Assembly (NCBI GenBank): GCA_023663825.1
Contig: JAMPGQ010000008.1
Span: 1-47,169, forward strand
DNA: 47,169 nucleotides
DNA from: Anaeroplasma bactoclasticum
Lineage (GTDB): Bacteria > Bacillota_I > Bacilli_A > Acholeplasmatales > Anaeroplasmataceae
Reading direction: 5' to 3'
Positions 4,838 to 19,102 of this stretch are shown one piece after another. The notes beneath the pieces were generated by a model, which saw nothing but the letters and a program-made list of their open reading frames with translations, was not told the origin of the DNA and did no database searches. A program made the translations under genes and the position numbers. The stretch's first letter is position 1; every line of letters starts with the position of its first letter.

Positions 4838-5560
4838 ATTTTTATTGAAATTCAGAACTTAAAAATTCATTATGAGGTAACTGGTACTGGTAAGGATTTA
4901 ATCCTATTACATGGCTGGGGAGCATCTCTCTTAACCTTTAATAAACTAGCTAAAACCTTAAGCAACAATTTTAAAGTTTATAGGATTGATTTACCAGGAT
5001 TTGGTGAATCTGCAGTCGGTGTACCCCTTGGTGTAGAAGAGATTGCTGAAATTATACATGATTTTGTGGTGGAACTAGGATTAGAGGCACCAATTCTTTG
5101 TGGACATTCTTATGGGGGAAGAGTTGCCATTGTCTATGCTTCTAAATACTCGGTTGAAAAGCTTGTGCTAATTTCCTCAGCCGGACTTAAACAAAAATTG
5201 AAATTTTCCAAATGGTTTAAGATAAGAGTATATAAGATTTTAAAGAAGTGCCATCTACCAGTAAAAATGGGGTCAACAGATTATCAAAATGCCGATAATG
5301 TAAAAAGAATAATGCTAGTTAAAGCTGTAAATACGGATTTAAAGAAAGAATTGAAACGAATAGCTGCCCCTACATTATTACTATATGGAACTAAGGATAC
5401 TGTTACACCACTAAGTCTTGGTTATAAAATGAAAGAACATATTTATAATTCTGAGCTTATAGAACTTGAGGAATGTGGACATTTTCCGTATTTAGAAAGA
5501 CCGAGTATATTTTCATTAATCTTAATGAGCTTTTTAGTGGGTGAAGCACATGATTATTAG
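4838..5560 (+). CDS. Alpha/beta hydrolase, apparent ATT start
   Basis: A 240-residue alpha/beta hydrolase with a complete catalytic set: oxyanion loop HGWG (residues 25 to 28), nucleophile elbow GHSYGG (Ser91), Asp187 in GTKDTV and His215 in ECGHFPY. The frame has no ATG, GTG or TTG between the in-frame TAG at 4823 and GTG 5066, and starting at 5066 would remove the oxyanion loop. GGTGATATT stands directly before ATT 4838, the same spacing as GGTGATATTATG before the gene at 30594, so ATT 4838 is the likely start or a mutated ATG. The gene overlaps the Mur ligase by 11 bases, which suggests coupled translation. Substrate unknown. Confidence 0.75.
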   Translation: MFIEIQNLKIHYEVTGTGKDLILLHGWGASLLTFNKLAKTLSNNFKVYRIDLPGFGESAVGVPLGVEEIAEIIHDFVVELGLEAPILCGHSYGGRVAIVYASKYSVEKLVLISSAGLKQKLKFSKWFKIRVYKILKKCHLPVKMGSTDYQNADNVKRIMLVKAVNTDLKKELKRIAAPTLLLYGTKDTVTPLSLGYKMKEHIYNSELIELEECGHFPYLERPSIFSLILMSFLVGEAHDY

Positions 5561-7022
5561 TGTCTTGTTGTATGCTTTATGTAAGCTTTACTTAGTCTTA
5601 AATATCTACCAACAATCTCATTATCAGTTTAAACTTTATTTGAAGCATTTTGTCTACAATCTTATTTTTTATGATTTATTTCCGTGTATTGTTTTAGTTT
5701 TAGGGATGCTTCAAAATGAATTTATTATCATCTTAATTTGTAGTATTTATTTATGCTTGTTTAGTATATTTTATTTGATTGCCAGAGTGAAATTAAAGTT
5801 TACTAAGCGAATGCTACGTATGCTTATTTTAAGTATTCTTTATTTAGGAATAGGGTTTATTCCTTATATAGGAGTATATTTATTGTTATTTTTAGAATTT
5901 ACAATATTACCAGTTTTATGCTTAGAAAGAGGAATTGCTTATCTGCTGAATAGACCGTACATATGTAAGGCTAAAGAAAAACTAAGGGTGTATAGAGGGA
6001 AGAAAATTGCAATTACAGGATCCTTTGGCAAAACATCTACTAAGGTTCTATTAAATCAGGCATTGAATCTGTTTTATTCCTCAGCAGCTACACCTAAAAG
6101 CTACAATACAGAGCTTGGAATATCTAGATTTATAAATGATATTCCTGATTTAAATATCTTCGAAGACATTGTATTAGAGTTTGGTGCATCTCATAAAAAA
6201 GATATAAAAAAATTAAAAGAAATTACAGAACCTGATGTGTGCTTTGTTACAGGGATAGGGTATATGCATGTTGAAACCTTCGGAAGCATTGAAGAAATCA
6301 TCAAAGAAAAAATGAGTTTGTTAGAAGGTTGTCGAATAGCTGTATTAAATTATGATTGTAGCTTTATAAGGGAATATCCAATTTCTTTTAATATTGATAT
6401 TATCAGCTATGGGTTAAATAATGGAACATATCAGGCAAGAAATATTATAAATCAGGAGTTTGATTTTTATAAGAATGAAAAATTTTTGGCGCATTTTAAA
6501 ACAAACCTAGTAGGAAGACATCAGATTTTAAATTTAACAGGTGTTTTAGCATATTTATATGAGCAAGACTGTGATTTGTCTGTTCTAGAAAGAGGAACCT
6601 TATCCTTTACAGCTGAAAAGAATCGTTTAGAGGTTAAAAAAATGAACACATATACTTTACTGGATGATTCCTTTAACAGCAATTATCAAGGCTTTATAGA
6701 GGCATTGAACATTTTGAAGAATCACCCAAATAAACGTGTTTTATTAACTCCGGGAATGGTGGAGCTTGGAAAATATAAGAAAGAATTATTTTCCAGCTTA
6801 ATTGAATATATAGTAAGTAGTACAGATATAGTTATACTCATTGGCTTTTATCAAACAAATGGTTTGTACCGAAAGCTGAAAAGTTATAATAAAGAGGTTT
6901 ATTTAGTGAGAAATTTTATGGAGGGATATCACTTGTTTTTAACATTTGAAAAAAGCTATATGGATAGTATGTTATTGATTGAAAATGATGTGCCAGATTT
7001 ATACAGAGTGGGGTTGATTTAA
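5550..7022 (+). CDS. Membrane-anchored MurF-like Mur ligase
   Basis: About 490 residues. The first 130 hold four to five membrane helices, absent from classical MurF. A Mur ligase body follows with the ATP loop GSFGKTST (residues 157 to 164), a SYNTELG segment, and the Mur C-terminal domain (DDSFNSNYQG and onward). Mur ligases join an amino acid or dipeptide to a UDP-MurNAc peptide; the GS[FY]GKTST form is typical of MurF-like proteins using D-Ala-D-Ala. The adjacent Ddl homologue, overlapping by one base (TAATG), supports that role. ATG 5550 is chosen over GTG 5541 because GGGTGA stands six bases before it. It may be a second, membrane-tethered MurF rather than the housekeeping enzyme. Confidence 0.8.
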   Translation: MIISVLLYALCKLYLVLNIYQQSHYQFKLYLKHFVYNLIFYDLFPCIVLVLGMLQNEFIIILICSIYLCLFSIFYLIARVKLKFTKRMLRMLILSILYLGIGFIPYIGVYLLLFLEFTILPVLCLERGIAYLLNRPYICKAKEKLRVYRGKKIAITGSFGKTSTKVLLNQALNLFYSSAATPKSYNTELGISRFINDIPDLNIFEDIVLEFGASHKKDIKKLKEITEPDVCFVTGIGYMHVETFGSIEEIIKEKMSLLEGCRIAVLNYDCSFIREYPISFNIDIISYGLNNGTYQARNIINQEFDFYKNEKFLAHFKTNLVGRHQILNLTGVLAYLYEQDCDLSVLERGTLSFTAEKNRLEVKKMNTYTLLDDSFNSNYQGFIEALNILKNHPNKRVLLTPGMVELGKYKKELFSSLIEYIVSSTDIVILIGFYQTNGLYRKLKSYNKEVYLVRNFMEGYHLFLTFEKSYMDSMLLIENDVPDLYRVGLI

Positions 7023-8008
7023 TGAGATTAGGGATATTATTTGGCGGAGCTAGCTATGAGCATGAAATTTCTATAATCACAGCTTATCAGCTAAAGAAGA
7101 AGATTGAAAAGGAATATGAAATTCATTTAGTATATGTAAGTCTTTCTGGAAAATTTTATAATGCTGATAAGATGTGTTTAAATGACTTTAAATTAAGTCA
7201 GTATAAAAAGTTGAAGAAGCTAAAGCTGGATAAATTAAAGCTCGATGTACTTGTGGGGGCAATGCATGGGGAAAACGGTGAGGATGGTTTAGCCTGTGCC
7301 TTTGCAAAAATCCATGGTATTAAGTATTTAGGCTGTGATATGTTTGCAGGCTCCTTATCTTTGGATAAATACAGAAGCTATCTTTATTTGGCAAAGAATG
7401 GAGTCAAAATGGTTAAGACGATGAGATATACCTATGAGGATTATTTGAAAAACAAAAAAATTTTTTATATGCCTTGTATTATCAAACCTGTTTATGGAGG
7501 TTCCTCTATAGGAATAGCTATAGCTAAAACAAAAGAAGAGCTACCAGATAAGTTAAATGAAGCATTTGGTTATTCTAAGGAAGTAATTATTGAACCTTTT
7601 TATGAAGCTATAGAGGAATATAATCTTGCGTTAAATGAAACGACATTCTCAGAACTTGAACAAATTCATAAAAAGGATGATATCTTTTCCTTTGAAAATA
7701 AATATAGTGATTCCTTCAAGGTTGTACATCAAAGTATTGTTGAACATCCTAAGTATAAAGATTTCTGTAAAGTCGCAAGAAAGGTGTATGACTTAATTTC
7801 TGCAAGAGGAATTATCCGAATTGATTTCTTTTTAATTGATAATGAGATTTACGTTAATGAAATCAACACAACTCCAGGAGCTTTAGCAATGTATTTATTT
7901 TCTGATTTTTCTGAAGTGTTCCATAATTCTTTAAAAATTTGTTTGCAGAAAAAAGAAAAAACATATCCGAATTCACACTTCCTATTAAAAAATAATATTA
8001 ACAAATAA
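7022..8008 (+). CDS. D-alanine--D-alanine ligase family protein
   Basis: An ATP-grasp ligase of 328 residues. Visible family marks: FGGASYEHEISI near the N-terminus, MHGENGEDG, the KPVYGGSSIGIA ATP-binding loop and the C-terminal RIDFFLIDNEIYVNEINTTPG with metal ligands. It should condense two D-amino acids for use by the Mur ligase just upstream. The omega-loop segment reads SFENKY where D-Ala-D-Ala ligases usually have a Tyr before the Glu, so second-substrate specificity may differ; this is inference from one position. It may be a second ddl rather than the essential one. Confidence 0.82.
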   Translation: MRLGILFGGASYEHEISIITAYQLKKKIEKEYEIHLVYVSLSGKFYNADKMCLNDFKLSQYKKLKKLKLDKLKLDVLVGAMHGENGEDGLACAFAKIHGIKYLGCDMFAGSLSLDKYRSYLYLAKNGVKMVKTMRYTYEDYLKNKKIFYMPCIIKPVYGGSSIGIAIAKTKEELPDKLNEAFGYSKEVIIEPFYEAIEEYNLALNETTFSELEQIHKKDDIFSFENKYSDSFKVVHQSIVEHPKYKDFCKVARKVYDLISARGIIRIDFFLIDNEIYVNEINTTPGALAMYLFSDFSEVFHNSLKICLQKKEKTYPNSHFLLKNNINK

Positions 8009-10529: not shown

Positions 10530-10763
10530 ATGGCTATTTTTGATAAAGTTCAAGAAATTATTGTTAAAGAATTAAAGGTTGATGCCGCTAAGGTTACACT
10601 AGAAGCATCTTTAAAGGATGATTTAGGTGCTGACAGCTTAGATGCAGTAGAAATTGTTATGGATATTGAAGATGAGTTCGGTGTAGAAATTGATGACACT
10701 AAGGCTGAGGCAATTTCTACAGTAGGTGATCTTGTTGCCTATATTGAAGAATTAACAAAGTAA
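10530..10763 (+). CDS. acpP: Acyl carrier protein
   Basis: A 77-residue acidic protein of standard length. [15 protein letters not shown] carries the phosphopantetheine Ser36 in the DSL motif, followed by the usual [12 protein letters not shown] helix. After loading with 4'-phosphopantetheine it carries acyl chains in fatty-acid synthesis. It is a single-gene transcript with its own promoter and terminator, not beside fab genes. Instead it precedes an odd LeuRS paralogue by 54 bases with a terminator in between. Confidence 0.95.
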
Positions 10764-10768
10764 GAATC

Positions 10769-10789
10769 AGCTGCGAAATGCAGCTTTTT
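10769..10789 (+). terminator. acpP terminator
   Basis: AGCTGC, loop GAAAT, GCAGCT, then TTTTT. Confidence 0.85.
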
Positions 10790-10817
10790 CTTTTCTATAA
10801 AAAGGAGGGGATATCCT

Positions 10818-12827
10818 ATGATTAAAGAGAATTCTTATTGGATAAAAGAATGGAAGATAAGTAAAAATTTCAGAGTAGAAAAAGATAGAATCAAACCAAA
10901 ATCCTATCTTTTTTCAACATTTCCGAAGACTAATTTATACGGCTTTCAGGATTTAAATATTCGTGCTCTTTTGGTTGGTGATTTCTTTTCTAGATACCAA
11001 CGTATGGCGGGCTTTAATGTGCTTTTTCCAACAGGATATGATTCTTTAGGTTTAAGCTCTTATATGGAAAATAAGCGTCATAGTAATACGAATAACGATG
11101 ATATCTCCTCTATTTTTGAAGAACAAATGCTATCTTTAGGGATTGGTATGGATGAACAAAAAACAATTGATTTAAAGCATGAAAATTTTTTGTCTTCTTT
11201 ACAATTAGCTTTTATTGAGTTGTATGAATTAGGGTATATAAAGTATGGATTGATTGATGTATGCCAAGATAAATCTGGCAAAAAGATATTAGATACATAC
11301 TTCAATAAAAAAACACTTTACCCAAATAAAGTGAAGGCTTTTTATTTAGATATCTCCTCAATCAGGGAAAGTGTGATTGAAAAGATTGATGGACTTCCAA
11401 TAGAAGCCTCTTTAAATCAACAGCTTAAAGCTATTTTTTCTCCGAAAAATAGTTTAAATATTCTTTTTTCAGTTACAAATGGTGCAAAGCTTACCTATAA
11501 CTTTAAAGCCCCAGAATATATAGGTGGAATCTCCTTTATTTTACTTCATCCAGATTATATCGATTTTATAGAGTATACACTTTATGAAGAGTATCCTGCC
11601 ATAGAGATGTATTTATCAGAGGATAATACCAATGACTTTGGTGTATTCACAGGAAACTATGCAATTAATCCTCTGACTGGTAAGAAGATTCCTATATTCA
11701 TCAGTGTAAAATATGATTGCCCTATTTATGTGGCAAATCCTTATTTGAATAGTGAGGATAGAATAACAGCACAGGAAGAAGGTCTTCCTATTATAGATGT
11801 TGTGCAAAATGGGGTTTTCATAGAAAGTGATTTTTTAAATGGGGTTCCCTTAGAAGAAGGTAGAAAGCTTATTATGGAACAGTTTTTATTAGCAGATATA
11901 GGGACCTATGAATCCTATTACAGCAAAGATAAGATTTTGTTGTCTTCTTTAGATGCATTTGGTGCACTTTTGCCTTTTTTTATTGATAATGATGAGGAGC
12001 TTCATTCTTTAAAAAAATACCTTCCGTTTGTCTTATCCTCTAAGTTTAGACCTGTTTTATCTGATAATATAGAGGTTCCTGGAGATATGCTTTCAGGGAG
12101 CATAAATCATCTTTTTTCAGCTGGAATGCTGCCAATACTTTCTATCCTATATGATAATGTAGGAGCAAGTTCATCTATATTTTCTTCAGATGCCATTCAA
12201 AGCTATCAGTTATGGCAAGGAATCGAACTATTGACAATTCCTGAGGATGAAATTTATGAAAATGTATTTATTCCTCTTTGCTTCATTTCTATTATAGAAA
12301 AAGAAAAAAGGGTGAAGCTCCCTCCATTATTTAAAAAGCTTGAGCTTGTTCATAATACGTTTGATGATGAGTATCATAAAATTACACGCTCTAATAATAA
12401 TCTATTTGATTTTACGATGTTATTAAAAAAGTATTCAGGCGATGCCTGCAGAATGTATTTTTTAAGTAAGCCTCTTTATCAAGATTTTATATTCAATGAA
12501 GCAGAACTGGCGAGTATGAAGAATTTGAAGAAAAGCATTGAAGAGTTTTATACAAAACCATTTTCTCAAAAGGATATGTTAGGAAGTAGCTTTAAAGATT
12601 TTATTGATCGCTGCTTGTCTTTCTTGGCTGATAAAAATGTTTGTGGCTATGTAGAAGGAATAACCAGCTTTTTCAAAGAACAATTATGGAATGCCACGAT
12701 TACAAGTAAGCAGGGGTTAATCCTATTAAAAATATTATATCCTGTATGTCCATTTTTGGCAGAAGATATCTATCGTGAAAAATATCACGGAAAATACTTA
12801 ATTAGTGATGATGGATGGATTATTTAA
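10818..12827 (+). CDS. Leucyl-tRNA synthetase paralogue lacking the HIGH motif
   Basis: A 669-residue protein that aligns over its length with bacterial LeuRS (normally just over 800 residues). LFSTFPKTNLYGFQDLN replaces the usual MFPYPSG...HVGH stretch, so both HIGH histidines are gone (residues about 39 to 47). RYQRMAGFNVLFPTGYDSLGL (split here: RYQRMAGFNV, then LFPTGYDSLGL) keeps the following helix. FTGNYAINPLTGKKIPI (about 277 to 293) is the LeuRS editing-domain signature. KITRS near 521 stands where KMSKS belongs. The C-terminal anticodon-domain end is present (LYPVCPFLAEDIY) but the extra LeuRS C-terminal domain is not. Aminoacylation is unlikely. Strong AGGAGGGG site and an intact long frame argue for function. 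A true leuS is presumably elsewhere. Confidence 0.8.
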   Translation: MIKENSYWIKEWKISKNFRVEKDRIKPKSYLFSTFPKTNLYGFQDLNIRALLVGDFFSRYQRMAGFNVLFPTGYDSLGLSSYMENKRHSNTNNDDISSIFEEQMLSLGIGMDEQKTIDLKHENFLSSLQLAFIELYELGYIKYGLIDVCQDKSGKKILDTYFNKKTLYPNKVKAFYLDISSIRESVIEKIDGLPIEASLNQQLKAIFSPKNSLNILFSVTNGAKLTYNFKAPEYIGGISFILLHPDYIDFIEYTLYEEYPAIEMYLSEDNTNDFGVFTGNYAINPLTGKKIPIFISVKYDCPIYVANPYLNSEDRITAQEEGLPIIDVVQNGVFIESDFLNGVPLEEGRKLIMEQFLLADIGTYESYYSKDKILLSSLDAFGALLPFFIDNDEELHSLKKYLPFVLSSKFRPVLSDNIEVPGDMLSGSINHLFSAGMLPILSILYDNVGASSSIFSSDAIQSYQLWQGIELLTIPEDEIYENVFIPLCFISIIEKEKRVKLPPLFKKLELVHNTFDDEYHKITRSNNNLFDFTMLLKKYSGDACRMYFLSKPLYQDFIFNEAELASMKNLKKSIEEFYTKPFSQKDMLGSSFKDFIDRCLSFLADKNVCGYVEGITSFFKEQLWNATITSKQGLILLKILYPVCPFLAEDIYREKYHGKYLISDDGWII

Positions 12828-13752: not shown

Positions 13753-13805
13753 CTGTAAATATTATAACAAATTTTTAATCTTATGTGGTAATAATTGTTG
13801 TTTTT

Positions 13806-13814
13806 TGGTATAAT
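13806..13814 (+). promoter_or_regulatory. Extended -10 promoter ahead of the membrane protein/polC unit
   Basis: TGGTATAAT lies 25 bases before ATG 13839. No good -35 hexamer at 17 bases. It falls inside the longest open frame (which begins at 13785) and so argues against that earlier start. Confidence 0.6.
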
Positions 13815-13838
13815 AAAAATAATGTGAGGTTTGAAAAT

Positions 13839-14633
13839 ATGTTTGAAAGATTCAAGGATTGTGTGTGTCATCCTAGGTACATTGGAAAATATAATAAAGA
13901 TAAGGGCGGTATAGTATTTTTAACTATATTGATTTTCTTTTTCTTAAGCATTTTAATGCAGGGAATTAGAAGCTATACAGCTAATCCTATCTCTGAAACT
14001 TTTTCATATGCTATGACCTCAACAGTTATTCAGCATGGAAAAACCAATGTTGTTTATAATGCAGCAGAAGGAAAGATTATAGGAGATTATTTTGAATCAA
14101 AGCATAATGGCTTTCATTTGATTGTGTTACCAGAAGAACATACTTCTGTAGCTTTAGAATTAGATGCTGTAACAGTTATTTTAGAAGAAGAGTCTGCAAC
14201 TCTTTATTATGGTAATTTAAGAGCCTCTACCTTTTTATATAAGAATCTTGATATAGTAAATTTTAGTTTTGAAAATGTGGCAACAAATCAAGCAACAGAT
14301 ACTTATTATTTCCGTATCTTTATAGACCATATATTAGATTCCGCCAAAGTATTTTTCCAAACCTATGCATTTATACAAGGAATTATTACAACAGTGGTAT
14401 ATTACCTTATTTGTGTTGCTTTTAGTTATGTTTTGTCTATTGCCATTAATCCTACAATCAACAGAGGAGTTCGCATAAAGCTTTGTATGTATGATGGGTG
14501 TGTGTTCTTTGTAGGAACATTCTTTGCATATTTATTTAATTCAGACATCATTACTTATTTTTCACTGGCTTTACCACTAGTATATACACTGGTAACGTTT
14601 AGGCATATTATAAAGGTTGTTATAAGAAGGTAG
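13839..14633 (+). CDS. Membrane protein, DUF1189-like
   Basis: A 264-residue protein. One membrane helix near residues 25 to 45 leads to an outer domain of about 110 residues (with KTNVVYNAAEGKIIGDYF), then three to four helices to the C-terminus. That layout resembles DUF1189 proteins, whose role is unknown; the match is by topology and a few residues, so it is tentative. The start is ATG 13839, with GTGAGGT eight bases before it and an extended -10 further up; the upstream in-frame GTG overlaps the promoter. polC begins 14 bases after the stop, so the two are probably co-transcribed. Confidence 0.6.
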   Translation: MFERFKDCVCHPRYIGKYNKDKGGIVFLTILIFFFLSILMQGIRSYTANPISETFSYAMTSTVIQHGKTNVVYNAAEGKIIGDYFESKHNGFHLIVLPEEHTSVALELDAVTVILEEESATLYYGNLRASTFLYKNLDIVNFSFENVATNQATDTYYFRIFIDHILDSAKVFFQTYAFIQGIITTVVYYLICVAFSYVLSIAINPTINRGVRIKLCMYDGCVFFVGTFFAYLFNSDIITYFSLALPLVYTLVTFRHIIKVVIRR

Positions 14634-14647
14634 TTTTTGGAGGGTGT

Positions 14648-17600
14648 ATGAAATTAGAAGAGTTATTAAAACAAGAGGAAATCATCACCTCTGAGTTTTC
14701 TATAGAAAAAGCAAAATATCAAAAAAAATCTAAAAAGGTTACTTTTTACATTGGAATAGAGGATTCTTTAAATTATGAAAAATATCAGTCTTTAGTAAAA
14801 TGTATAGAGACTGCTTGTATGGAGATTGGTTTAAAAGCTTCCTTACAGGTAGAATATACAAACGAAAAATTAACTGGTGAAGAATATCAAACCTATTTAA
14901 AGGTGATTTTGGAATGCTTAGGAGAAGAGTCTCCAAGATTTCATGTTTTTGATGCAGAGGAATGTAAGATTGAAGGAAATAGACTTCAGTTTTTGATCCC
15001 TTATGATGCAGCAGGAGTTGAGGATTTATTACTTCCTATTAAGAAAAAATTTAATGAATATGGTCTTCATGTAGAAATTGCCTTGGTCCGTGATGAGAAG
15101 GCAAGTGTACAGGCTGAGATAGATGCAATGCAAAAGGAAATGGAAGAAACATTAGCTAAACAAAAAGCTGAAGCCGTGGCAGTTCAAAAAATTAATGAAC
15201 AGATTCAAAAGGAAAAGAAATATACTCGTATGCAGGCTCCAACAGAGATTAGTTTAATTGAGGATATTCCAAACACCTTAAATGAGCTTACGATTTATCA
15301 AAATACTAATGGTCCTTGTATTTTTACGATTGATGCCTATATTTTTGGGATTGAAATTAAAACATTTGCTAAAACCAAGTCTTCTCTAGCTACAATTAAG
15401 GTTACAGATGAATCTGATTCTATTTTAGTTAAGAAATGGCTTCGAACAGATACAGAAAAAGATCTTTATGAACGTGATATGCAGGAAGGCTCCAGATTAA
15501 AGATTACAGGTAAGGCGGAGTATGATTCCTTTGCAAAGCAGGTTGTCATCAACGCCACCTCTATTGAATACATTGGTAAAAAAGAAAATGTAAGTGTAAC
15601 TGATTCTGCAGAGGTAAAAAGAGTTGAGCTTCATTGTCATACCAAGATGAGTAATTTAGATGGCTTGACGGAGGCTACAGACTATGTAAAAACCGCTATT
15701 GAGTGGGGCTGGAAGTCTATGGCATTTACAGACCACAATGGCATTTATAGTGTTCCTGACATTGCCCATGCGATTGAAAAGTACCCAGACTTTAAACCAA
15801 TTTATGGCGTGGAACTAAATTATATTAATGATGAAAAATATTTCATTACTTTAGATGAAAGAGATATCGAGCTTAAGGATGCAACCTACGTAGTATTTGA
15901 TATTGAAACTACAGGTTTATCACAGACCTATGATGAGATTATTGAAATTGCTGCTCATAAGGTTTATCAGGGTGGAATTATAGATACCTTTGAGGTATTT
16001 GTAAATCCAGGTATTCCTATTCCAGAAAAAATTGTAGGAATTACACATATTACAGATGATATGGTCAAGGATGCTTTATCTATAGAGGAAATTTTACCAA
16101 AGTTTATGGATTTCTGCAAAGGTGCTATTTTAGTTGCCCACAATGCAACCTTTGATGTGGGGATGATTTATAGAGATGTGAAAAAATATCATATGGGCTA
16201 TGAGATGCTACCTGTGATAGATACCCTAAATTTATTCCGTGCTGGTTATGGGAAGGAAGTAAAGACATTTAACTTAAAGTCCTTATGTAAGTATTTTAAA
16301 GTAAAACAAGAACAGCACCACAGAGCTACAGACGATACAAGAGTTACAGCGCTATGCTTTATCCAGATGTTAAGTGATTTATTTAAACGTAATATTTATA
16401 ATTATAAGGATATCAATTCTATCATTGATAAGAATGAACACTGGAAGCATTTAATTCCTTCGCATATTACAATTCTTGCGAAGAATCCTGTAGGCTATAA
16501 GAATATGTATAAGATTATCAGTGATGCATTAACGTATCATTTTTATGGAAGTGCTAAGGCATTAAAGTCTGTTATTGATACCCATAGAGAAGGTATCTTA
16601 ATTGGTTCTGCCTGTGTGAATGGTGAAGTCTTTGAACTTGCCTTAAATAGAAGTGTAGAAGAACTAGAAGAAGAAATCGAATACTATGATTATATTGAGG
16701 TTCAGCCTCCTACAGCATATCGCCAGTTATTTGAGGATATGCCACACGGACAGGAAAGAGTAGAGGAATTGATTTTAAAAATCATTGAGGCAGCAAAACG
16801 TAAGGGGAAACTTGTTGTTGCAACCTCTGATTGTCATTATTTACGTCCAAACTTAAAGAAATACAGAGATATCCTAATTGCATCTCCACAGGTTGGTGGA
16901 GGGCAGCATCCTCTTGCCAACTACAAGGAAGCTCCAGATATGCATCTTCGTACTACAGAAGAAATGCTAAAGGAATTTGAATTTTTACATACAGATTTAG
17001 CATATGAGATTGTTGTAGAAAATACAAATAAGGTTGCAGATATGGTTGAGAAGTTTTCTGCCTTCAAGAAGGATATGTTTGCTCCTAGAGATGATGAATT
17101 TAAGGATAAACTGAATGTTCCTTCTATTACAGAAGAGGTTAAGCGTATTGTAAAAGAAAATCTTACTAAGCTTTATGGAGAAAAGCCTCATCTTATTGTT
17201 CAAAGACGTATTGATAGAGAGTTAAATTCTATTATTTCTAATGGTTATGCATCTGTATATTATATTTCTCATTTAATGGTAGAAAAGTCTTTAAGTGATG
17301 GATACTTGGTAGGATCCCGTGGTTCTGTTGGTTCTTCTTTGGTTGCAACAATGATGCAGATTACAGAAATTAATCCACTATCTCCACATTATCGTTGTAA
17401 GAAATGTAAATTTCATACATTTAGAATGCGTGATGATGAAATAGATGAATTTGGATTAACTGATGTGGAAAAACCATTCCAGGCAACACTTAGAAGTGTG
17501 GATTCTGGATATGATTTACCAGATGCAGTTTGTCCAGTATGTGGTGAGCCTTTGGCAAAGGATGGACATGATATTCCATTTGAAACCTTTCTAGGCTTTA

Positions 17601-19102
17601 ACGGAGATAAGGTTCCTGATATCGATTTAAATTTCTCGGGTGAATATCAGGCTAAAGCCCACGAATATATTCGTGAGGTGTTTGGCAAGGAAAATGCCTT
17701 CCGTGCAGGTACGGTTGGTACGATTGCAGAAAAGAATGCCTATGGTTATGTTAAAGGATATTGTGAGCGTAAGGGGTTAAATCTTCGTTCTTGTGAAATG
17801 GATCGTCTTGCAACCTATCTAGTAGGTATCAAGCGTTCAACAGGACAACATCCAGGTGGTATAGTAGTTGTTCCTCATTATGTGGATATCTATGATGTTA
17901 CACCAGTTCAGTATCCTGCAGATAATATTGATAGTAGTTGGCGTACTACTCACTATGATTACCACTCCTTTGAGAATAATTTACTTAAGCTAGATGTGCT
18001 AGGACACGATGATCCAACCTTGATTAAATACTTTATGGACTATGTCCATCTTCATCAGGAGGATTTCCCATTCTCTGATCCACAGGATATTCCAATTGAT
18101 GATAAGAATATCTATAGATTGTTCTCTGGAACAGATGTTATTGGTGTAAGAGAAGATGAGATTGGAAGTAAGGTGGCTTCCTATGCTGTCCCTGAATTTG
18201 GAACAAACTTTGTTCGTCAGATGCTTGTAGAAACCTTACCTAAGACATTTGCTCAATTGGTTAAAATTTCTGGTCTTTCTCATGGTACAGATGTGTGGAA
18301 TACAAATGCTCAGGACTTAGTTGCAGGTTCTACTGAATATGGTAAAATTGAATTTAAGGATATTATCGGTTGTCGTGATGATATCATGGTTGACTTACTT
18401 CATTTTGGATTAGAGCCTTTGGCTGCTTTCCAGATTATGGAGTTGGTGCGTAAGGGCAAGGTATCTAAGGAACCCGAGAAGTGGGCAAAGTATAAAGAGA
18501 TGATGATTGAAAAGCATGTTCCTGCCTGGTATATCTGGTCCTGTGAGCGTATTAAATATATGTTCCCTAAGGCACACGCGACAGCTTATGTATTAATGGC
18601 ATTACGTATTGCCTGGTTTAAGGTGAATGCCCCAACATTGTTCTATAGTGCCTGGTTTTCTAAGCGTGCAAAAGGACATGTAGTATCTGCTTATCTAGGT
18701 GGTAAGATGGCAATCAAGGCTGCAATGGAAGAAATAGCGAATAAGCTAGATAAAACTGCAACAGATGATGATAAGTATACTGCTTTACAGGTTGCCCTAG
18801 AAATGGCATCCCGTGGAATTAAATTCTTACCTGTAGATATTATGAAATCCTCTGCCACAGTATTTGAGGTAGAAAATGGTGCATTAAGAATTCCATTTGC
18901 AGCAGTAGATTCCTTAGGAGAAAGTATTGCTGAAGACATTGTTACAAAAAGAAAAGAGAAACTATTTACTTCTAAAAAGGATGTTCAGAATAGAACCCGT
19001 TTAAGCTTGAGCTTATATGAATTATTTGATACAATGCATTCCTTTGGAAATCTGCCAGAAGAGGATCCAGAAGAGGCAGTAGGATTATTTGCTTTTGCTT
19101 AA
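14648..19102 (+). CDS. polC: DNA polymerase III alpha subunit, PolC type
   Basis: A 1484-residue replicative polymerase of Gram-positive type. Order: N-terminal domain (1 to about 220), OB-fold (about 225 to 320), PHP domain beginning with HCHTKMSNLDG near 329, an inserted DEDD proofreading exonuclease (FDIETTG, Asp418) up to about 590, the rest of PHP, a zinc module (CKKC near 917 with CPVC near 965), and the polymerase palm with PDIDLNFSG (about 989 to 997). GQHPGG and KAHATAYVLMALR are further PolC marks. It copies the chromosome with DnaE, the clamp and the clamp loader. GGAGG stands close to the ATG. Nothing looks damaged. Confidence 0.97.
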   Translation: MKLEELLKQEEIITSEFSIEKAKYQKKSKKVTFYIGIEDSLNYEKYQSLVKCIETACMEIGLKASLQVEYTNEKLTGEEYQTYLKVILECLGEESPRFHVFDAEECKIEGNRLQFLIPYDAAGVEDLLLPIKKKFNEYGLHVEIALVRDEKASVQAEIDAMQKEMEETLAKQKAEAVAVQKINEQIQKEKKYTRMQAPTEISLIEDIPNTLNELTIYQNTNGPCIFTIDAYIFGIEIKTFAKTKSSLATIKVTDESDSILVKKWLRTDTEKDLYERDMQEGSRLKITGKAEYDSFAKQVVINATSIEYIGKKENVSVTDSAEVKRVELHCHTKMSNLDGLTEATDYVKTAIEWGWKSMAFTDHNGIYSVPDIAHAIEKYPDFKPIYGVELNYINDEKYFITLDERDIELKDATYVVFDIETTGLSQTYDEIIEIAAHKVYQGGIIDTFEVFVNPGIPIPEKIVGITHITDDMVKDALSIEEILPKFMDFCKGAILVAHNATFDVGMIYRDVKKYHMGYEMLPVIDTLNLFRAGYGKEVKTFNLKSLCKYFKVKQEQHHRATDDTRVTALCFIQMLSDLFKRNIYNYKDINSIIDKNEHWKHLIPSHITILAKNPVGYKNMYKIISDALTYHFYGSAKALKSVIDTHREGILIGSACVNGEVFELALNRSVEELEEEIEYYDYIEVQPPTAYRQLFEDMPHGQERVEELILKIIEAAKRKGKLVVATSDCHYLRPNLKKYRDILIASPQVGGGQHPLANYKEAPDMHLRTTEEMLKEFEFLHTDLAYEIVVENTNKVADMVEKFSAFKKDMFAPRDDEFKDKLNVPSITEEVKRIVKENLTKLYGEKPHLIVQRRIDRELNSIISNGYASVYYISHLMVEKSLSDGYLVGSRGSVGSSLVATMMQITEINPLSPHYRCKKCKFHTFRMRDDEIDEFGLTDVEKPFQATLRSVDSGYDLPDAVCPVCGEPLAKDGHDIPFETFLGFNGDKVPDIDLNFSGEYQAKAHEYIREVFGKENAFRAGTVGTIAEKNAYGYVKGYCERKGLNLRSCEMDRLATYLVGIKRSTGQHPGGIVVVPHYVDIYDVTPVQYPADNIDSSWRTTHYDYHSFENNLLKLDVLGHDDPTLIKYFMDYVHLHQEDFPFSDPQDIPIDDKNIYRLFSGTDVIGVREDEIGSKVASYAVPEFGTNFVRQMLVETLPKTFAQLVKISGLSHGTDVWNTNAQDLVAGSTEYGKIEFKDIIGCRDDIMVDLLHFGLEPLAAFQIMELVRKGKVSKEPEKWAKYKEMMIEKHVPAWYIWSCERIKYMFPKAHATAYVLMALRIAWFKVNAPTLFYSAWFSKRAKGHVVSAYLGGKMAIKAAMEEIANKLDKTATDDDKYTALQVALEMASRGIKFLPVDIMKSSATVFEVENGALRIPFAAVDSLGESIAEDIVTKRKEKLFTSKKDVQNRTRLSLSLYELFDTMHSFGNLPEEDPEEAVGLFAFA

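Follow-up and report, generated by a model that had tools for sequence, protein, structure and literature searches.

The window analyzed here, a 47,169-nucleotide stretch from Anaeroplasma bactoclasticum (contig JAMPGQ010000008.1), encodes at positions 10818..12827 (+ strand) a 669-aa relative of leucyl-tRNA synthetase (LeuRS) without synthetic motifs, which we identify with high confidence as the displaced native leuS of the order, based above all on synteny, together with its open reading frame, profile searches and trees. Loss of both the synthetic and the editing motif sets is well supported, as is a history with a working leuS of foreign type, and the paralogue is clearly under constraint and maintained. 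As the best explanation overall, we favor a displaced synthetase that may well have been kept as a non-catalytic binding protein.

A LeuRS relative in a genome with a canonical leuS gene

In profile searches, the window protein matched the Pfam editing domain PF13603 and the bacterial LeuRS model TIGR00396 (LeuS; E=1.7e-29), the latter at 102.6 bits, far under the curated cut-off of 548.4. E. coli LeuRS structures matched the family profile with an E-value of about 1e-44, and homology was significant over the Rossmann, CP1 and anticodon regions. By this homology and by its leuS locus, the protein is a member of the LeuRS superfamily by descent. It resembles bacterial LeuRS in its domain order through the Rossmann fold, CP1 and the anticodon-binding region and in its ancestral locus, but lacks HIGH, KMSKS, the leucine pocket, the T-rich editing motif and the C-terminal domain. 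The same genome carries a separate canonical leuS (G000:C26:7660-10065), as the initial annotation's reading of the paralogue presupposed, with an 802-aa product that scores 1058 bits on TIGR00396 and has HVGH, KMSKS, TTR.DT and VPAHDERD all intact. Measured against this LeuRS, the window protein is not full-length, as had first been stated: its end aligns near residue 731, and it lacks the C-terminal domain of ~75 aa and several internal stretches.

The paralogue frame starts with ATG and is preceded by a strong Shine-Dalgarno sequence (AAAAGGAGGGG, 10801..10811, + strand) that is also found in most relatives. Directly upstream lies acpP (10530..10763, + strand), which encodes an acyl carrier protein and is the genome's only PF00550 match, in agreement with the initial description of a long intact frame with a strong ribosome site after acpP. 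The 54-base spacer between the two genes (10764-10817) contains an intrinsic-terminator-like hairpin (AGCTGC-gaaat-GCAGCT plus a T-run, 10769..10785, + strand), whose position is kept and whose sequence changes freely in nearly all loci of the window's family (f1) with a readable spacer. Because the hairpin stays in place and little space for a promoter follows it, the paralogue is likely expressed through read-through of the acpP terminator. An Rfam scan for T-boxes and other regulatory elements gave no hits near the paralogue or the working leuS. Downstream are a convergent radical-SAM gene (PF04055 and PF16199; 12820..13752, - strand), whose 3' end overlaps that of the paralogue by 8 bases, a membrane protein gene here labelled DUF1189-like (without a Pfam match; 13785..14633, + strand) and polC (14648..19102, + strand), which closes the conserved block marking the native leuS locus. 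Elsewhere in the window, positions 5541-8008 encode a Mur-ligase-like protein (PF08245) and a D-Ala-D-Ala ligase; the family is assigned to the Mollicutes, a group thought to be without a cell wall.

The paralogue occupies the native leuS locus

The gene order in f1 is acpP, paralogue, radical-SAM gene (on the opposite strand), DUF1189-like gene and polC. A BLAST survey placed acpP directly upstream of the paralogue in at least 47 of 50 loci, plus the partial copy in G039. When the sister families were compared, we found that a canonical leuS of 798-811 aa immediately follows acpP in G058, G070, G078, G068 and G063, that the radical-SAM/DUF1189-like/polC block is close to that leuS in several sister-family genomes, and that leuS in G083 lies just upstream of the DUF1189-like gene and polC. 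Because a working leuS occupies the same locus in sister families, we regard the window gene as the native leuS, still in its original position. Synteny and trees thus replace the earlier idea of a duplicate that arose beside acpP with a vertically inherited native gene, displaced by the leuS of another lineage. The acpP adjacency is ancestral and older than the loss of function, and so carries no functional information; a functional tie to the acyl carrier protein was ruled out for this reason.

Origin of the working leuS

In the leuS tree, the working leuS of f1 and of a second family (f2) is placed among other Bacilli orders, and a clade of native and working leuS was rejected (AU p=1.9e-7). 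The dead copy of f2, the least diverged, joins the native leuS with support of 99/97, and its grouping with the working leuS was rejected as well (p=0.0004). This tree is unrooted, and the f1 copies form long branches whose own placement is less certain. Four length signatures match the native and not the working leuS: the N-terminal loop has 9 residues in native leuS and in all 50 of the dead f1 copies versus 10 in working leuS, the C-terminal loop has 17 in native leuS and in 49 of 50 dead copies versus 16 in working leuS, and the remaining two match in f2 and partially in f1. Since some of these states occur in outgroups, the signatures rule out the working leuS as the parent and fall short of proving descent from the native one.

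Family f4 (G057, L196) and G054 (L197) have a third type of leuS, which forms a clade with other Bacilli families, and because these genomes bear another type, leuS has probably been replaced more than once in the order. In the rpoB tree, the families with native leuS form one clade (support 99), and the lineages with dead copies are compatible with a single origin at weak support (48). Alternatively, both leuS types could be old duplicates within the order that were differentially lost in sister families, with no horizontal transfer. The unrooted tree and the long branches of the dead copies would leave room for such hidden paralogy, but we consider it very unlikely, given that the working leuS sits deep within other Bacilli with starred support, that dead-copy lineages contain two or more leuS types, and that losses would have had to happen many times in parallel. 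Separately, the leuS frames of G210, G204, G151 and others contain 18-21 in-frame TGA codons, as expected if TGA is read as Trp.

Loss of synthetic and editing motifs

In the window protein, HIGH (canonical HVGH) has become Q-D-L-N at residues 44-47 (10947..10958, + strand), GWDAFGLPAEQ has become GYDSLGLSSY with EQ deleted, and KMSKS has become KITRS at residues 521-525 (12378..12392, + strand). These replacements, already pointed out in the initial annotation, hold across the 50 complete relatives, in which both HIGH histidines are replaced and KMSKS has its first Lys in only 8 of 50 and mostly R in place of its second K. GWDAFGLPAEQ, RQRYWGEP, SSWYF and GGSEHAVGH are likewise not conserved in f1 copies. 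Among 182 near-invariant columns defined on 78 LeuRS, 23 are kept in f1 copies, 9 have switched to another conserved residue and 150 are lost, with 0 of 7 C-terminal columns kept, and f2 copies retain 82-85. The 9 switched columns and 34 others, some of which fall just short of the LeuRS conservation threshold, give 43 positions at which the family is conserved and LeuRS is either variable or has another residue. The window protein almost certainly does not charge tRNA.

The editing domain had been described as keeping its signature, which is true of the CP1 scaffold (residues 191-362; 11388..11903, + strand), with its NPLTG..IPIF and SDFLNG parts, and of Asp314 (codon 11757..11759, + strand; E. 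coli LeuRS D345), but not of the T-rich motif or the GTGAxM..VPAHD.R loop. T247 is replaced by L/F/M, T248 by E/K/D and T252 by Y/L/E, R249 and the loop are also replaced, and the substitutes in the editing motifs are variable, hydrophobic or charged. As far as sequence tells, LeuRS-type catalysis is excluded. Asp314 is the sole editing-pocket residue invariant in the paralogues, being kept in 50 of 50 f1 and 2 of 2 f2 copies and, by eye, likewise in f4. In class Ia editing domains, the equivalent Asp hydrogen-bonds the amino group of the tRNA-borne amino acid (PMC4861432). In the paralogues, Asp314 may be structural.

Dead remnants occur in two further families (703 and 517 aa). The 517-aa remnant of f4 (L131:5313-6866 in G057), which also follows acpP, matches the f1 profile mainly in CP1 (180-360; 98 bits) and in the helical region of the C-terminal part (561-665; 45 bits), and only traces of its synthetic core remain (12 and 5 bits, where the best of 200 shuffles of the whole protein gave 12.6 bits). 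Because this remnant keeps both parts and the Asp is invariant, CP1 and the helical part suggest themselves as a working module, which we treat as a lead. Within f1, conservation of CP1 does not significantly exceed that of the remainder of the protein (circular-shift p=0.17; kept columns 7/47 in CP1 versus 15/117 in the rest, p=0.80), so that the CP1-centered idea draws on Asp314 and one f4 genome.

We considered two roles built around CP1. A trans-editing deacylase, that is, a free-standing CP1-type hydrolase with a rebuilt pocket that clears mischarged tRNA, would explain why the scaffold and the amino-group-anchoring Asp are kept and why f4 lost precisely the synthetic core. However, the replaced T247, T248, R249, T252 and loop leave most of the LeuRS-type pocket gone, and the intact editing site of the genome's own LeuRS would make an activity of that type redundant; the stand-alone editing enzyme of the initial annotation is accordingly disfavored, and we judge even a rebuilt deacylase improbable. 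Known free-standing synthetase-related hydrolases that act in trans, such as AlaX and YbaK/ProXp, keep their catalytic residues and are not class Ia CP1 domains. Conceivably, a CP1-centered LeuRS-derived family, arising through the recycling of a displaced essential enzyme, might instead sense or carry aminoacyl-tRNA, or else a free amino acid, with the Asp kept and both the hydrolytic and the synthetic machinery gone, a reading that we hold to be rather unlikely.

Distribution and maintenance in the family

The paralogue was identified in 51 of the 55 genomes of the window's family, 50 times complete and once (G039) cut by contig ends. All 50 complete copies have uninterrupted frames of 645-687 aa, with 23-85% identity to the window protein, and nearly every f1 genome also has a separate LeuRS. 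The four genomes with no paralogue match differ in their circumstances: G033 lacks any acpP match, G002 and G016 (78% and 84% complete) yielded other ACP loci alone, and in G054 the contig stops 91 bases after acpP (L130:5050-5141), at what seems to be the border of a repeat or mobile element. Because these assemblies are incomplete or broken at the locus, we do not read the absences as gene loss. Elsewhere in the class, no homologues outscoring ordinary LeuRS were present among the matches listed (296 genomes, E<=1e-50, best four candidates per genome), and the literature searched contained no account of this protein or its family.

To the dN/dS comparison of orthologues that had been proposed, estimates by the Nei-Gojobori method give a clear answer, with values of 0.04-0.15 for the paralogue where dS is unsaturated, versus 0.06 for leuS. 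The closest pair has a dN of 0.013 and a dS of 0.30 (ratio 0.04), and two pairs from other genera have 0.036/0.39 and 0.095/0.63 (0.09 and 0.15). For G000 and G044, the paralogue gives 0.105/1.74 and the working leuS of these two genomes 0.039/0.61. More diverged pairs show ratios of 0.3-0.6, which are unreliable given that dS is probably saturated. The paralogue evolves faster than leuS in most pairs, with dN about 2-3 times higher in several. Neither the broken frames nor the dN/dS near 1 of a pseudogene were observed, and the gene is retained in genomes near 1 Mb, which bears out the initial view of a maintained LeuRS relative.

The raised dN in several species pairs, together with the shortened forms across families (703, 669 and 517 aa), would also fit a slowly decaying relic without function. 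This is disfavored by the dN/dS values, and the open frames of 50 of 50 complete loci, the retention in such small genomes and the conserved Shine-Dalgarno sequence and terminator position all stand against it, leaving a relic extremely improbable.

Proposed role of the displaced synthetase

In our reconstruction, the lineage acquired a working leuS of other origin, and the native copy stayed where it was. This copy then lost its leucine-activation motifs (HIGH, KMSKS and the leucine pocket), along with the canonical motifs for editing and the tRNA-binding domain at its C terminus. It nevertheless escaped decay, probably as a non-catalytic protein, and now has its own conserved signature. CP1, with its invariant Asp, and the C-terminal helical part might contact tRNA or the aminoacyl-tRNA end, or else a protein of the translation apparatus, in which case the paralogue would be an accessory or regulatory factor and not an enzyme. 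On the sequence evidence, a binding or regulatory role seems somewhat the better bet, and that it would be exercised through the old tRNA-facing surfaces is a tentative suggestion. Because the C-terminal domain is lost, binding of tRNA-Leu in the classical manner is argued against. An AlphaFold model of four sequences (the window protein and L041-L043) reached a pLDDT of 31 and was set aside.

A further candidate is a regulatory subunit resembling HisZ or SLIMP, controlling a protein partner (an enzyme of amino acid metabolism, another synthetase or a ribosome factor) without use of the ancestral pockets. The 43 family-specific conserved positions would fit a new interface, but the gene context indicates no partner, as the conserved neighbors already stood beside leuS when it was a working gene, and we regard this possibility as doubtful.

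Comparison with known systems

The retained binding protein that we favor has partial parallels among second LeuRS copies in archaea. LeuRS-I of the Sulfolobaceae still forms leucyl-adenylate and binds tRNA-Leu, and weak charging persists in LeuRS2 of haloarchaea (PMC9437257). In both, as here, a second LeuRS exists beside a working one; aminoacylation is lost or reduced in the archaeal copies, as is predicted for the paralogue, and their role is considered tRNA-dependent (PMC9437257). The archaeal cases are milder than the present one, where neither HIGH nor KMSKS is left and the native gene, once displaced, became the dead copy. HisZ, a paralogue of HisRS without adenylation activity, and SLIMP, a paralogue of SerRS, are synthetase-derived regulatory partners (PMC9437257), and would be the nearest precedents for a non-charging regulatory role of the paralogue. 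Unlike it, they are class II proteins of other ancestry, with known partners.

Synthetase genes are often displaced by horizontal transfer, and the gene that is displaced would normally be expected to disappear. Here, a displaced leuS has outlived the loss of both active-site motif sets in virtually an entire family of wall-less-type gut bacteria, and two other families have remnants. Automatic annotation may label this conserved protein of a little-studied lineage as leucine--tRNA ligase. The graded series from active native enzyme through forms of 703, 669 and 517 aa offers natural material on the fates of an essential enzyme freed from its job.
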